A DNA stretch of 48,641 bases, taken from positions 1 to 48,641 of the forward strand of contig CAMHTE010000004.1 of the NCBI GenBank assembly GCA_946187975.1, in the 5' to 3' direction. Below are positions 11,601-44,680 of the stretch, one piece after another. The notes under the pieces are model-generated. The model saw only the letters and a program-made list of their open reading frames with translations. It did no database searches and was not told the origin of the DNA. The translations under genes and the position numbers were made by a program. The first letter of the stretch is position 1, and each line of letters starts with the position of its first letter. Origin of the DNA: an uncultured Bacteroidales bacterium. Lineage in GTDB: Bacteria > Bacteroidota > Bacteroidia > Bacteroidales > UBA932.

Positions 11601-11612
11601 CGGAGGACAAAG

Positions 11613-12782
11613 TTAACTATTTTTGGGATTGATGGTGCAGCGTCCGAGCAGGTCCGTAGTGATGAATCCGTCGCTTTCCAGGATGCCGATGAGGCGCAGG
11701 ACCTCCCCTCTGGGTTTTCCGCTGAGGGTGCACAGTTCTTCCGTGTCCGCACCCCTGTGCCTCCTTATCAGCGATGCAAGCGATGCTATGGCGTCGCGTT
11801 CGGTCCGGTCGGCCAGTGCGGAATAATAGGAAGATACGCACGAATCGAAGGTCTTCACCCCTCCGGCGGTAATGCGCCCGAGGCCCAGTTGGCGCCCCAG
11901 GAGGCTTATGTCGGTGATGGGTTCGGCCAGTTTTTCCGCCAGGAGCAGGTTGCACCCGGCCGAACGGACGTCGTCGATGCGCCCGGGCAGTACAAGCACG
12001 TCCCGTCCGTAACCGCATGCCAGCCTGCAGGTCAGCAGTCCGCCCCCTTTAATCCGTGATTCCACCAGTATCGTGGCGCCGCTCAGTCCCGCTATGATGC
12101 GGTTGCGCCGAAGGAAGGTGAATGCCGCGGCTCCCGTGCCCGGAGGATAGTCGGTGACCAGGGCGGAACCGGGGGTTGAGGCAATCCTTTCCGCTGCTTC
12201 CCTGTGCCTTGCGGGATATATGTCGTCGATACCCACGGGCAGCACCGCAATCGTAGGTAGTCCGTATTCAAGAGCGCTGAGATGGGCCCGGATATCCACT
12301 CCGAAGGCAAGTCCGCTGACTATGGCGGGTCGTTCCGGAGTCCTTGCGAGATGCTGTACTATGCGTGCGGTCCATTCCCTGCCATAGGGAGAGATGTCCC
12401 TCGTGCCCACCACCGCCACGGCCCGTTTTCCGGAAAAGATTTTCTCCGGAGGGTCCGAACTTCTGACATACAGCCCCGCCGGAGGATCTTCGCAGGCCTT
12501 GAGCATTTCGGGATAGGATTTGTCGGTAATGGGAACGAAGCGGCAACCGTCGCGTTCCAGACGTTCCAGTTCTTCCGCGGCCTCGTCCAGGGCCTGTCGG
12601 GAGATGCTGCCCGCATAGCGCCACGCGGGTCCAGTCAGGCGTTCCAGCTCGCTGGCCGGAAGATCGAAGACGGCCCTGGCCGACCCCAGGGTCCGGATAA
12701 AGCCGAGCGCATAACGGGGCTCGTAACCAAAGATGCGGTTGAGGGCGCAGGCGGCCGTTTTTTCTGCAATGAAGTTTTCCAT
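11613..12782 (-). CDS. dprA: DNA-processing protein DprA
   Basis: 'AVAVVGTRDISPYG', 'AIVSGLAFGVDIRAH', 'IIAGLSGATILVE', C-terminal winged-helix-like region. Confidence 0.95.
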   Translation of the reverse strand: MENFIAEKTAACALNRIFGYEPRYALGFIRTLGSARAVFDLPASELERLTGPAWRYAGSISRQALDEAAEELERLERDGCRFVPITDKSYPEMLKACEDPPAGLYVRSSDPPEKIFSGKRAVAVVGTRDISPYGREWTARIVQHLARTPERPAIVSGLAFGVDIRAHLSALEYGLPTIAVLPVGIDDIYPARHREAAERIASTPGSALVTDYPPGTGAAAFTFLRRNRIIAGLSGATILVESRIKGGGLLTCRLACGYGRDVLVLPGRIDDVRSAGCNLLLAEKLAEPITDISLLGRQLGLGRITAGGVKTFDSCVSSYYSALADRTERDAIASLASLIRRHRGADTEELCTLSGKPRGEVLRLIGILESDGFITTDLLGRCTINPKNS

Positions 12783-27670: not shown

Positions 27671-27688
27671 CAAAAATAGTTAAATTTG
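27671..27688. promoter_or_regulatory. Divergent -7 boxes: TATTTTTG (minus, 27671-27678) and TAAATTTG (plus, 27681-27688)
   Basis: Two oppositely oriented TAnnTTTG motifs two bases apart between divergent genes. Confidence 0.6.
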
Positions 27689-29538: not shown

Positions 29539-30240
29539 TCAGTGAATACGCAGTATATCGGCGCCCCGCTCTTCAGCGAGGCGTTCTGCGTATGCGGTGC
29601 CTGTCTTGCGGGTAAAGCGTTTGTCGGCCACTCCGACCAGGATGGGACGGCCGAAATGGCGGAATGCGCCAAGGTTTTCGAGCAGTTCCCAGTTCTGCTC
29701 CTCAGTCTTTGCAAAGCCGAATCCCGGATCCAGTATCCAGTCCTTGATTCCAAGGCTGCGTGCCTTTTCAGCAAAGGTCTCGAAGTATGCGTCAACTTCG
29801 GCCACGACCCCGCGCGGGTAATCGCACATGGCGTCCATGGTCCGGGGATTTCCGCGTTTATGCATCGCCACGTAGGGGAGTCCAAGTCCTGCAACGGTGG
29901 ATAGCATGTCCGGGTCGTCCTCTCCGGCGGAAATGTCGTTGACTATGAATGGGCCGAGAATCTCGAATGCCCTTTTTACAATCTCGGAACGGGTTGTATC
30001 AATTGAGACGGGCGGAGATTCCGCCCTTAACCACTCCAGGACCGGTTCCAGCCGGCGCCATTCCTCTTCGACGCTTACTTCCGCCGCTCCGGGACGGGTC
30101 GAGACCGCTCCCAGGTCGATGATGGAGCAGCCCCTGTCAAGGAGCTTCTGCATGCGTTCAGCCGCAGCATCCACGCTCCCGGCACGGCTCTCCGCAAAGA
30201 AAGAGTCCGGCGTAAGGTTTACTACTCCCATCAGTATCAT
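29539..30240 (-). CDS. folP: Dihydropteroate synthase
   Basis: 'MGVVNLTPDSFF', 'IDLGAVSTRPGA', 'VSIDTTRSE', 'ILDPGFGFAKT'; ATG at 30240. Confidence 0.94.
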   Translation of the reverse strand: MILMGVVNLTPDSFFAESRAGSVDAAAERMQKLLDRGCSIIDLGAVSTRPGAAEVSVEEEWRRLEPVLEWLRAESPPVSIDTTRSEIVKRAFEILGPFIVNDISAGEDDPDMLSTVAGLGLPYVAMHKRGNPRTMDAMCDYPRGVVAEVDAYFETFAEKARSLGIKDWILDPGFGFAKTEEQNWELLENLGAFRHFGRPILVGVADKRFTRKTGTAYAERLAEERGADILRIH

Positions 30241-30246
30241 ACACTG

Positions 30247-30275
30247 CAAAGATAAGCGAATAATGCTTATATTTG
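30247..30275. promoter_or_regulatory. Divergent folP/tmk -7 boxes: TATCTTTG (minus, 30247-30254) and TATATTTG (plus, 30268-30275)
   Basis: Each box ends 6 nt before its ATG within a 41-bp intergenic region. Confidence 0.7.
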
Positions 30276-30281
30276 CACATC

Positions 30282-30959
30282 ATGCTCATAGTTCTGGAAG
30301 GCCTGGACGGGGCGGGAAAGTCCACCCAGGTCCGCAAAATGAAGGAATACCTCGCGCAGAAGTGTGCAGGTCTCGAATACATACATTTCCCCCGTTATGA
30401 GGCTCCCGTTTACGGCGGACTAATCAGCCGTTTCCTGAGGGGAGAGTTCGGTGCCATCGACTCGGTCCATCCGCAGCTGGTGGCCCTGCTTTTCGCGGAA
30501 GACAGACATGGGGCTGCGGGGACGATTCGCGAGGCCCTGGACAAGGGGAGCACGGTGCTTCTCGACCGCTACGTTTATTCCAACATAGCCTACCAGTGTG
30601 CGAAACTTCCCAATCCGGATGAGGCGGAGGCCCTGAGGGAATGGATTTTGAACACCGAGTTCGGCGAATTCGGCGAGCCGCGTCCGGACCTTAATATCTT
30701 CCTGGATGTACCAATAGGTTTCGTAGAACACAGCCTTACCGCCGCCCGCAAGGGAAGCGACCGTGCCTATCTGCACGACTCCCAGGATATTCACGAGCAG
30801 GATATCAACTTCCAGAAACGTGTGCGTGCGATGTATTTGCGTCAGGCGGAAGTGGATCCTGCCCTTGTAGTTGTGGATTGCTCCGCTCCCGACGGCAGCA
30901 TGCTGCCTCCGGACGACATCTTCCTCAAGTTAAAAGCAGTGGTTGATGAACGGCTTTAA
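30282..30959 (+). CDS. tmk: Thymidylate kinase
   Basis: 'MLIVLEGLDGAGKSTQVRKM', 'VLLDRYVYSNIAYQ'; ATG at 30282. Confidence 0.92.
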   Translation: MLIVLEGLDGAGKSTQVRKMKEYLAQKCAGLEYIHFPRYEAPVYGGLISRFLRGEFGAIDSVHPQLVALLFAEDRHGAAGTIREALDKGSTVLLDRYVYSNIAYQCAKLPNPDEAEALREWILNTEFGEFGEPRPDLNIFLDVPIGFVEHSLTAARKGSDRAYLHDSQDIHEQDINFQKRVRAMYLRQAEVDPALVVVDCSAPDGSMLPPDDIFLKLKAVVDERL

Positions 30960-31998
30960 GCGCATATGCTCGGCCGCCCTCGGGCTGGTTCTGTTCCTGG
31001 CCGGACTCCTTAAACTGATGGATCCCGTCGGGGCGGGCCTGATAGCCGATGAGTATCTGCGGTTCTTCCGTCTGGGCTTCCTGCGCTTCGCCGCTCCCGT
31101 GCTTGGAAGCCTCATGGCATATATCGAGTGTGCCGCCGGAGCCGCCCTCATTACGGGGGTTTGGCGCAGGGTCACCTGTATCTTTACCGGAATCCTGCTT
31201 GGCTTCTTTACGCTGGTAACGCTGGTGCTGCTTATATTCAACCCTCCCATGGACTGCGGTTGTTTCGGTGAGGCGGTGCATCTGTCGCACGGTGCCAGTT
31301 TTATAAAGAACCTTGTCCTCGCCCTCATCTGGTTTGCCGCATTCGCGCCTTTCCGAGAGTTCGGAACGCCCCAGCGCAGCCGCTACGTATCCTTTACGCT
31401 GGCACTGATATCTTCGGCGCTATTCCTGCTTTATTCGGCATTGACGATTCCTCTGGTGGACTTCGCTTCCTTCAAGCCAGGTACCTTCCTTGCCGGAGCC
31501 ATCGATGACGGGGAAAGCTTCGAAGACCAGCCCCTGCTTCCTTTCATCGACGCCCGCGGAGATTATGCCGACAGTCTGGCCCTGAGCGGCAAGGCAATAA
31601 TAGTTTCGGCATACAACAGCCTCAACGGCGGGGGAGAGCGCCGTACGGCCGCCTTCCTCGATGCAGCCGCCGCGGAGGGATTTACGCCTCTCTTCATAGC
31701 CTCCGGCACTCCCTCGTCTCTCGCTGAGAAGCTTTCCGTGCCTACGCTTCTCCCGTACTGCTATTCGGGCGACAGGCGCATGCTTATGACCCTCAACCGT
31801 TCCAACGGGGGAGCCACTCTTGTGTGCGACGGTCAGATCATTGCCAAATGGCCGGCTTCGCGTCTTCCGGATTCGGAGAAACTCAGGCAGCTGGGTACAA
31901 AAGACCCTGTCGGGGTTATGCACGAGGCAAAAAACCGGGACAGGGTGCGTTTGCAGGGTTTTCTGATTTACGTACTGGCCGTAATGTTCTTCATCTAA
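30946..31998 (+). CDS. DoxX-like membrane protein
   Basis: 'ALGLVLFLAGLLKLMDPVGAGLIADEYL' and 'FNPPMDCGCFGEAV', multi-TM; ATG 30946, overlaps tmk by 14 nt. Confidence 0.75.
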   Translation: MNGFKRICSAALGLVLFLAGLLKLMDPVGAGLIADEYLRFFRLGFLRFAAPVLGSLMAYIECAAGAALITGVWRRVTCIFTGILLGFFTLVTLVLLIFNPPMDCGCFGEAVHLSHGASFIKNLVLALIWFAAFAPFREFGTPQRSRYVSFTLALISSALFLLYSALTIPLVDFASFKPGTFLAGAIDDGESFEDQPLLPFIDARGDYADSLALSGKAIIVSAYNSLNGGGERRTAAFLDAAAAEGFTPLFIASGTPSSLAEKLSVPTLLPYCYSGDRRMLMTLNRSNGGATLVCDGQIIAKWPASRLPDSEKLRQLGTKDPVGVMHEAKNRDRVRLQGFLIYVLAVMFFI

Positions 31999-33731
31999 AG
32001 GATGGTCACCTGGTAAGGCATGCGGGCGATTACCTGAGGCTTTGCCAGTTCGGAGATCTGTGCCTTCACGTATTCGTCCGGTTCCAGTTTCTGTCCTAAG
32101 GTTACCAAAATGCTCTCCATCTCGGTAAGAGGCTTGGGGTATTCCGCAATCTGCCAGTTGGCAAGATCGGCATCGCCGCCGGCCGCCGCTGCCCATGAAA
32201 TGGCATCCTCGAGTGTTCCGAGTTCGTCCACGAGACCTATATTCAGTGCGTCTGCACCGGTCCATACGCGTCCCTGGCCGATTTCGTCAACATAAGCCTT
32301 ATCCAGCGAACGTCCTTCGGCAACAATCGAGGTGAACTTGTCGTAGGTGTTCTCGATGCAGCGGAGCATATAGTTGTATTCGGCTGCGTCGAACGGGCGC
32401 ATTACGCCCCACATGTCGCCGTGTTTGTTGGACATGGCAGTGTAAACACCTACATGCAGCACATCCTTCGCAGTGCGGCTGAAGTCGGGAATCATACCGA
32501 ACACGCCGATAGAGCCGGTGAGCGTGGTGGGGCAGCTGAAGATTTTGTCGCAGTTGTGGGAAATCCAGTATCCTCCGGAAGCGGCATAATCGCCGTAGGA
32601 GGCAGCCAGAGGCTTTACTTCGGACAGAAGGTCGAGTTCGTGCTTGATCTTGTCGGAAGCCATCGAGCTGCCGCCGGGAGAGTTCACGCGCAGCACCACG
32701 GCCTTGACGGTCGAGTCGGAGCGCACCTTGTCGATAATCGAGGCAAAGCGGTCTCCCGCGATGTTCTGGATATCCTTTCCGTCAACTATGTTGCCTTCTG
32801 CGTAGATTACCGCTATCTTCTTGTGAGCACGGAAATTGGGCAGGACCTTGGCGTCTGCATAAGCGTCGAAGGGGATGAACTTCACATCCTTGAAGCGGTC
32901 AACAACCGCAAGATCGGCGAGTTTCTCCTTAAGTTCGCTGCGGTTGAGCACGCCGTCCACCAGGCCCTTCTGAAGGAGGTCCTGAGGCAGGCAGAGTTCG
33001 AGTCCGTCGACCATTGCGTTAAGCTCGGCTACTGAAATGCCGCGGCTTTCGGCGATCTCGGCCGAAATGCTCTCCCACATCGATTTGACCATGCGCTCGT
33101 ACTGCTCCTTGTTCTCGGCGCTGGGGGTGTTGCGCACGAACATCTCGCCCGCGGATTTGTATTTGCCATGGCGAATGAGCTGGACGTTCACTCCAAGACG
33201 ATCGAGAAGGTCCTTGAAGTACATGGTCTGGGCCGAAACGCCGTTTATGGTAACGGTTACGCCATCGTAGGAGGTTACATAAACCTTGTCAGCCACCGAT
33301 GCCAGGTAGTACGAGGCCGTGCTTGGGGATTCGGTATATGCCACGACGGCCTTGCCTTCCTTGCGGAAGTCGGCGAGAGCCTTGCGCAGTTCCTGGAGAT
33401 GGGAGATGCTGGTGGTATTGCCGTCGACACGGAGGAAGATGAACTTGACTCCGGGATCGGCTGCCGCTGCATGTATGGCCTGCACGGCCTTGTAAAGACC
33501 TATCTGCACTATGTCCTTGCCTTGGATGGAAGCCATGGGATTTGCAGGATTGCTCTGTTCCGTAATAGCGATAGCTGACATGTCGAGAGCCAGGACTCCG
33601 CTCTTTGGGATGACGGTTCCCTTGCCTCCCGACGCAGCTCCCGCAATGGATATGAGAATGATGAATCCGAGGACCCACATCAGCAGGATGCCGCACATTA
33701 CGGCAAGCACCATTTTGAAAAACTTCTTCAT
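31995..33731 (-). CDS. sppA: Signal peptide peptidase SppA (67K type)
   Basis: 'VVLRVNSPGGSSMASDKIKHEL', 'SYGDYAASGGYWISHNCDKIF', 'TLTGSIGVFGMIPDF'; ATG 33731. Confidence 0.94.
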   Translation of the reverse strand: MKKFFKMVLAVMCGILLMWVLGFIILISIAGAASGGKGTVIPKSGVLALDMSAIAITEQSNPANPMASIQGKDIVQIGLYKAVQAIHAAAADPGVKFIFLRVDGNTTSISHLQELRKALADFRKEGKAVVAYTESPSTASYYLASVADKVYVTSYDGVTVTINGVSAQTMYFKDLLDRLGVNVQLIRHGKYKSAGEMFVRNTPSAENKEQYERMVKSMWESISAEIAESRGISVAELNAMVDGLELCLPQDLLQKGLVDGVLNRSELKEKLADLAVVDRFKDVKFIPFDAYADAKVLPNFRAHKKIAVIYAEGNIVDGKDIQNIAGDRFASIIDKVRSDSTVKAVVLRVNSPGGSSMASDKIKHELDLLSEVKPLAASYGDYAASGGYWISHNCDKIFSCPTTLTGSIGVFGMIPDFSRTAKDVLHVGVYTAMSNKHGDMWGVMRPFDAAEYNYMLRCIENTYDKFTSIVAEGRSLDKAYVDEIGQGRVWTGADALNIGLVDELGTLEDAISWAAAAGGDADLANWQIAEYPKPLTEMESILVTLGQKLEPDEYVKAQISELAKPQVIARMPYQVTIL

Positions 33732-33756
33732 TTTCCGATTATTTTTTGCATTTGTG

Positions 33757-33784
33757 CAAATATAGGAATAAAGTGCTATATTTG
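33757..33784. promoter_or_regulatory. Divergent sppA/rubrerythrin -7 boxes: TATATTTG (minus, 33757-33764) and TATATTTG (plus, 33777-33784)
   Basis: Identical TATATTTG octamers on opposite strands, 12 bp apart. Confidence 0.6.
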
Positions 33785-33813
33785 CCCATACACGATAACA
33801 ATCATATTTTATT

Positions 33814-34359
33814 ATGGACAATCAGAATAAATACTCCGGTACCCAGACCGAAAAGAACCTGCAGGCCGCTTTCGCTGGGGAATCCCAGGCCCGCAACAAG
33901 TACACTTACTTCGCCTCCAAGGCCAAGAAGGAAGGGTACGAACAGATAGCCGCCATTTTCCTCGAGACAGCCGACAACGAGAAGGAGCATGCCAAACTGT
34001 GGCTTAAGGAGCTTGAAGGCATAGGGGACACCCCCGCCAACCTCGCCGCCGCAGCCGAAGGCGAAAACTTCGAATGGACCGATATGTACGAGGGCTTCGC
34101 CAAGACCGCCGAAGCTGAAGGCTTCAAGGCCCTCGCCGCCAAGTTCCGCATGGTAGGCGCCATCGAAAAGCGTCACGAGGAGCGCTATCGCGCCCTGCTC
34201 AAGAACATCGAGACCGCTCAGGTCTTTGCAAAGTCCGAGGTTAAGGTTTGGGAATGCCGTAACTGCGGCCACATTGTGGTTGGTACCAAGGCTCCCGAAC
34301 TCTGCCCCGTATGTGCCCATCCCAAGGCATATTTCGAAGTTCACAAAGAAAACTACTAG
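33814..34359 (+). CDS. Rubrerythrin
   Basis: '[21 protein letters not shown]', 'HAKLWLKEL', C-terminal rubredoxin-like '[29 protein letters not shown]'. Confidence 0.96.
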
Positions 34360-36045: not shown

Positions 36046-36076
36046 CAAAGGTACTACAAAAAGTTTATTGTGCAAA
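36046..36076 (-). promoter_or_regulatory. tRNA-Asn promoter: TTTG (36073-36076) - N19 - TACCTTTG (36046-36053)
   Basis: -33/-7 Bacteroidetes layout on the minus strand, 12 nt before the tRNA 5' end. Confidence 0.7.
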
Positions 36077-36096
36077 AAATTTTTTTCATTTTTTCT

Positions 36097-36104
36097 TATC
36101 TTTG
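36097..36104 (+). promoter_or_regulatory. Candidate -7 box for the HU-domain gene
   Basis: TATCTTTG, 21 nt before ATG 36126. Confidence 0.5.
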
Positions 36105-44651: not shown

Positions 44652-44680
44652 CAAAAATACAAAAAACATCGCTATCTTTG
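44652..44680. promoter_or_regulatory. Divergent murI/glycosyltransferase -7 boxes: TATTTTTG (minus, 44652-44659) and TATCTTTG (plus, 44673-44680)
   Basis: Minus box ends 6 nt before ATG 44645; plus box ends 8 nt before GTG 44689. Confidence 0.65.

Follow-up and report, generated by a model that had tools for sequence, protein, structure and literature searches.

The window, the whole 48,641-nucleotide stretch of DNA that was analysed, contains folP and tmk as divergent genes, folP on the minus strand and tmk on the plus strand, with 41 bp separating their ATGs. Two opposing -7 boxes lie in this interval at a gap of 13 bp, and both TATCTTTG and TATATTTG match the -7 consensus TAHHTTTG. The initial annotation had described a 41-bp divergent interval with each box 6 nt (N6) before its ATG, and this layout was exact to the base. 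The features, read from the sequence unless another basis is given, are as follows.

29539 to 30240, minus strand: folP (dihydropteroate synthase) coding sequence from ATG, stop included (PF00809, E 2.4e-64)
30240 to 30238, minus strand: folP start codon ATG
30241 to 30246, minus strand: N6 spacer CAGTGT between the -7 box and the folP ATG
30247 to 30254, minus strand: -7 box TATCTTTG of the folP promoter
30259 to 30264, either strand: putative shared A/T tract AATAAT, with G/C-richer steps on its flanks (from the solitary-promoter profile, see below)
30268 to 30275, plus strand: -7 box TATATTTG of the tmk promoter
30276 to 30281, plus strand: N6 spacer CACATC between the -7 box and the tmk ATG
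30282 to 30284, plus strand: tmk start codon ATG
30282 to 30959, plus strand: tmk (thymidylate kinase) coding sequence from ATG, stop included (PF02223, E 2.8e-25)

When folP was read from its ATG, the whole PF00809 pterin-binding (FolP) domain was kept. The top database relatives of the Tmk protein were found in draft genomes of rumen and gut Bacteroidales, several of them Candidatus Cryptobacteroides, which places the organism, an uncultured member of Bacteroidales, close to Cryptobacteroides.

With ATG, GTG and TTG allowed as starts, the open reading frame (ORF) track opens both genes at a TTG within the box (29539..30249, 'MQCM'; 30273..30959, 'MHIM'), as had been pointed out in the initial annotation. 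The last three letters of the box are TTG, and across a 6-nt spacer this triplet necessarily shares its frame with the ATG, so the extra TTG start recurs at every N6 promoter. The in-box TTG could not be part of the mRNA, because the mRNA would begin downstream of the box, and at N6 promoters gene callers would thus be prone to extend the protein by three residues that the message cannot encode. Both folP and tmk combine an AUG start codon with a box at a leaderless-type distance (N6). An unlikely alternative is that the boxes are real while the working starts lie elsewhere, at other promoters or at internal ATGs such as that of the MGVVN methionine of folP, which would make the genes leadered. 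An in-frame ATG does lie 15 nt after the folP box, and GTG or TTG starts are possible in principle; however, 15 nt falls on the near-empty edge of the box-to-ATG spacing distribution described below. Furthermore, most divergent orthologues retain the upstream folP ATG, which lies a few codons ahead of MG[IV]xN[LVA]TPDS, and a start there gives the domain its complete first strand; the tmk ATG was invariant in the relatives read, and no further consensus -7 box was found inside the 41 bp. Elsewhere in the window, the ORF track starts a 608-aa minus-strand ORF (31995-33821) at a TTG upstream of its -7 box (33757-33764), while this box points to an ATG 25 nt downstream and a 578-aa product.

The -7 box occupies -12 to -5 in the start-site map of Flavobacterium psychrophilum (PMC9723704) and lies 4-5 nt before the start site in Flavobacterium johnsoniae (PMC6847099), so that N6 spacing predicts leaders of about 1-2 nt. 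Transcription of folP and of tmk thus probably starts one or two nucleotides ahead of the start codon, with predicted start sites at about 30242 for folP (leader of about 2 nt) and about 30280 for tmk and predicted leaders of GU-AUG and UC-AUG, respectively. The lack of a ribosome-binding leader, to which the initial annotation had drawn attention, is less striking than it might appear, since Bacteroidota do not use Shine-Dalgarno sites (PMC9723704, PMC6847099).

In the genome containing the window (own genome; a draft of 1.68 Mb, 82% complete, 56% GC), complete counts of TAnnTTTG-N4-8-ATG gave 159 matches versus 25 for the reversed pattern, a control of equal composition. Among the 100 matches listed, spacings of 4, 5, 6, 7 and 8 nt were represented by 17, 17, 34, 18 and 14, respectively. 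A genome-wide enrichment of N6 had been proposed as a check, and N6 was indeed the mode, with strong enrichment of the whole 4-8 nt class. The emphasis placed on exactly 6 nt therefore survives in part: N6 is favoured, but as the top value of a 4-8 nt class whose distribution is flat in close relatives. Distances backed by ORFs, i.e. to ATG starts opening at least 80-100 codons in 440 kb of stretches with uncurated gene starts, were bimodal, with 41 at 2-8 nt (mode 6), 2 at 9-14 nt and 58 at 15-40 nt. Control motifs gave a flat distribution, and GTG/TTG starts showed no 4-8 nt peak. Leaders of about 5-10 nt were nearly missing, as if so short a leader did harm.

After background correction, the leaderless share of box-led starts was 51% in the own genome (bootstrap 38-65%) and 27% (20-34%) in 63 close relatives. 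It was 5-18% in other Bacteroidales, with intervals that reach zero in the larger samples, and 0.05 in the outer families, not different from zero; the same-genus genome G008 yielded zero leaderless starts in the small sample of 80 kb. Ranking families by reversed-pattern ratios was dropped in favour of ORF-backed distances with control motifs, because the reversed-pattern background climbs with A+T content. Outside the order, TAnnTTTG-N4-8-ATG was 2-3 fold over control in G139 (same class, 2.2 Mb) and in the f120 genomes G199, G203, G211, G234 and G242. Given this enrichment outside Bacteroidales, there may have been more than one expansion of leaderless starts.

Leaderless mRNAs have been thought rare in Bacteroidota, a phylum also without Shine-Dalgarno sites. 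A leaderless-gene survey that included 37 Bacteroidetes/Chlorobi genomes reported them for one, at 2.4% (PMC3160421). In start-site maps, leaders <10 nt made up about 3.7% in Bacteroides thetaiotaomicron (PMC7366714), the leaderless fraction was 5.5% in F. psychrophilum (PMC9723704), and leaders <=10 nt accounted for at most 13% in F. johnsoniae (PMC6847099). In contrast to these figures, about half of the box-led starts are predicted to be leaderless here, while the placement of a promoter box right before the ATG is shared with the bacterial leaderless genes surveyed. A leaderless-rich lineage beside leaderless-poor relatives would be a natural system for questions of translation start and of the switch between modes.

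The tract AATAAT (30259-30264) corresponds to -21 to -16 of the tmk promoter and to -22 to -17 of the folP promoter. Plus-strand AAAGATA (30248-30254), which lies in the folP box, corresponds to -32 to -26 of the tmk promoter, the expected place of its -28 A/T tract, and each -7 box of the pair falls within about -33 to -26 of the opposing promoter. In F. johnsoniae, AT-rich motifs have been reported one turn (-18) and two turns (-28) away from the box (PMC6847099), and comparison of AATAAT and AAAGATA with the lineage profile places A/T-rich tracts near both positions at folP/tmk. An exact -33 TTTG was absent on the folP and tmk sides, each of which has only TG(C) near -35/-33. This element is not firmly diagnostic, since the T/T/G preference at -33 is weak in the solitary promoters of the lineage and the element is also poorly visible in F. 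johnsoniae (PMC6847099).

Solitary promoters, defined as those without an opposing box, had an A/T content of 0.74-0.86 at -20 to -16 and 0.65-0.77 at -30 to -26, with weaker maxima near -40 to -37 and -50 to -47 and minima in between. The tracts recurred every 10.2-10.5 bp, and a period of 10.0-10.4 bp beat all 500 null draws in the own, related and outer sets. The -7 box and the -18/-28 tracts are already known for the phylum, and the promoters described here resemble the sigma-ABfr promoter of Bacteroidota in both the TAnnTTTG box and these A/T motifs. They differ from the known description in that the tracts reach about -38 and -48, in a 56% GC genome, and in that the tract pattern would govern the overlap of two opposing promoters.

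Back-to-back -7 boxes were searched for across the whole own genome as CAAAnnTA-N0-30-TAnnTTTG. This yielded 90 pairs, with gaps clustered at 1-2, 11-14 and 19-24 bp, and the counts at gaps of 11-13, 6-8 and 16-18 bp were 41, 1 and 1. Further clusters at 29-34 and 41-45 bp were observed in relatives, giving lineage gap values near 2, 12, 22, 32 and 43 bp. The best gap period was 10.1 bp (n=131, about 1e-28), or 10.4 bp for gaps of at least 15 bp. In G008 the three classes numbered 14, 0 and 0, and quantised gaps were also present in G003, a member of another family. The relatives' loci all surround tmk, with orthologous promoters partly repeated, and orthologous pairs inflate the relatives' pooled gap counts (29 pairs form one cluster, mostly of gap 2). 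The counts were therefore redone in two ways, after merging orthologous pairs and for the own genome alone; the pattern persisted on merging, with no gap at 16-20, 26-28 or 35-40 bp. Across 97 other Bacteroidales, one genome per family, pooled counts at gaps of 11-13, 6-8 and 16-18 bp were 888, 575 and 508 with controls near 390 (Wilcoxon 1e-10), and the phase preference is thus order-wide, weaker yet significant. In 58 genomes of the same class outside Bacteroidales, 216 pairs at gap 11-13 compared with 219 at 6-8 (controls 203 and 222), so that these genomes showed no phase preference. Such periodicity was absent from face-to-face and same-strand box pairs. Besides the folP/tmk pair, the window contains the following back-to-back pairs.

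11608 to 11625, both strands: gap 2 bp, ATG 7 nt (minus) and 6 nt (plus; short ORF) from the box
27671 to 27688, both strands: gap 2 bp, the relatives' orthologous cluster also being mostly gap 2
33757 to 33784, both strands: gap 12 bp, both sides leadered (25 and 29 nt)
36046 to 36104, both strands: gap 43 bp
44652 to 44680, both strands: gap 13 bp, minus side with leaderless spacing (6 nt)

In the orthologous cluster of the pair at 27671-27688 (L051-L113), the gap was 2 bp in 22 of 29 relatives, so that CAAAnnTA-N2-TAnnTTTG forms an almost fixed 18-bp palindrome.

Phased A/T tracts do exist in solitary promoters, and the quantisation could in principle be their by-product, if such tracts yielded chance matches to opposing boxes and most second boxes were not promoters. 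This is very improbable: the reversed pattern of equal composition gave 3 pairs versus the 90, and 1 versus the 41 at gap 11-13, and most pairs are flanked on both sides by ORF starts at distances expected of a promoter (within 60 nt on both sides in 71 of 101 relatives' pairs). It is also improbable, if a little less so, that the cause of the quantisation is not tract sharing but the binding of a dimeric regulator, or of a nucleoid protein, to helically phased inverted CAAAnnTA/TAnnTTTG half-sites. A dimer, or a protein that recognises bends, would require its inverted sites to share a face of the helix, consistent with the 10.1-bp period. However, the putative half-sites are the known -7 element, the same 71 pairs are flanked by ORF starts, and the gaps reach four turns, beyond the span of a single dimer.

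The make-up of solitary promoters also argues against the regulator. Tract compatibility computed from solitary promoters alone had maxima at gaps of 4, 12, 21-22, 32 and 41 bp, the profile favouring 4 over the observed 2. The solitary-promoter profile of the relatives predicted the gaps of the own genome, none of 20,000 random draws doing equally well, and this result stood when every position inside the -7 boxes was omitted. As the tracts of opposed promoters coincide at certain gaps alone, gap quantisation would follow from single-promoter make-up, and no extra protein would be needed to account for it. A reciprocal overlap of -33 and -7 elements (TTTGCAA read backwards giving TTG) was rejected as the main cause, since it accounts for the 12-bp gap alone and not for 2, 22, 32 and 43.

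The positions, the enrichment, the bimodal spacing, the gap quantisation, the tract periodicity and the prediction of gaps from solitary promoters are all demonstrated by the DNA sequence. The reading that we favour, with a probability of roughly 0.75 as a full explanation, is that the 41-bp interval holds two back-to-back leaderless promoters of the Bacteroidota housekeeping-sigma type, which share phased A/T tracts and hence have whole-turn gaps. Each -7 box would fire about 5 nt downstream, both mRNAs would start 1-2 nt before the AUG, and the ribosome would take the folP and tmk mRNAs as leaderless messages. Each promoter would depend on short A/T tracts at about -18, -28 and -38, placed at the first, second and third helical turn upstream; the tract at 30259-30264 would serve both promoters, and each -7 box would replace the -28 tract of the other. 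Shared tracts would work solely with boxes a whole number of turns apart, a requirement that would explain gaps of about 2, 12, 22, 32 and 43 bp in the lineage. Housekeeping-sigma polymerase would bind the common scaffold one way or the other, and most likely both promoters lie on one phased A/T scaffold that serves a single direction at any given moment. With predicted starts 38 bp apart and each box in the -33 to -26 region of the other, one polymerase should exclude the other, and mutual exclusion of the two promoters is what the footprint overlap leads us to expect. For the lineage, it appears reasonably likely that about half of the box-led genes are leaderless with leaders of 5-10 nt avoided, that opposing promoters on a shared phased scaffold limit pairs to whole-turn distances, and that orthologous gaps shift mainly by whole turns.

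In sigma-70 promoters of Campylobacter jejuni, the place of a strong -35 element is taken by A/T tracts that recur every 10-11 bp ahead of the box. The phased tracts are alike in the two systems, whereas the phylum is unrelated and the box different, and we know of no quantised divergent promoter pairs in C. jejuni. Bidirectional promoters of E. coli and Salmonella have overlapping -10 elements and start sites 7-25 bp apart, commonly 10, 18 or 23 bp (PMC12825309, PMC10268837), and in E. coli the two polymerase orientations exclude each other (PMC12825309). The folP/tmk pair is similar in having opposing promoters with overlapping elements and a presumed exclusion. It falls outside the E. coli-type definition, however, as its boxes are 13 bp apart and do not overlap and its predicted starts are 38 bp apart; furthermore, distances in this lineage, unlike those in E. 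coli and Salmonella, recur each helical turn, to about four turns. In literature coverage that mostly excluded subscription journals, and which gives a weak negative only, no report was found of bidirectional promoters in Bacteroides, of leaderless mRNAs as common in Bacteroidales, or of whole-turn spacing of divergent promoters. The 41:1:1 whole-turn rule is a strong and quantitative indication of a functional role for phased A/T tracts within the promoters of Bacteroidales, and it predicts that a half-turn change in spacing would be harmful and a full-turn change would not.

The orthologous promoters vary among relatives, distant Tmk matches being too diverged for promoter comparison. A consensus tmk box was found 4-7 nt, about 18-28 nt or farther upstream of the ATG, and none at 9-17 nt in the relatives read; tmk thus has leaderless spacing in some relatives, not all. 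The consensus box was absent at tmk in same-genus G008. For divergent folP, the box was mostly 4-8 nt from the ATG, and one folP/tmk orthologue had an off-phase gap of 5 bp. In two relatives (L059 and L085), the folP box and the tmk box face each other directly upstream of tmk and overlap, as TATCTTTGCAAAGATA. Both genes are leadered there (about 22-25 nt), and each start site would fall in or beside the box of the other, a different, nested solution at the orthologous locus.
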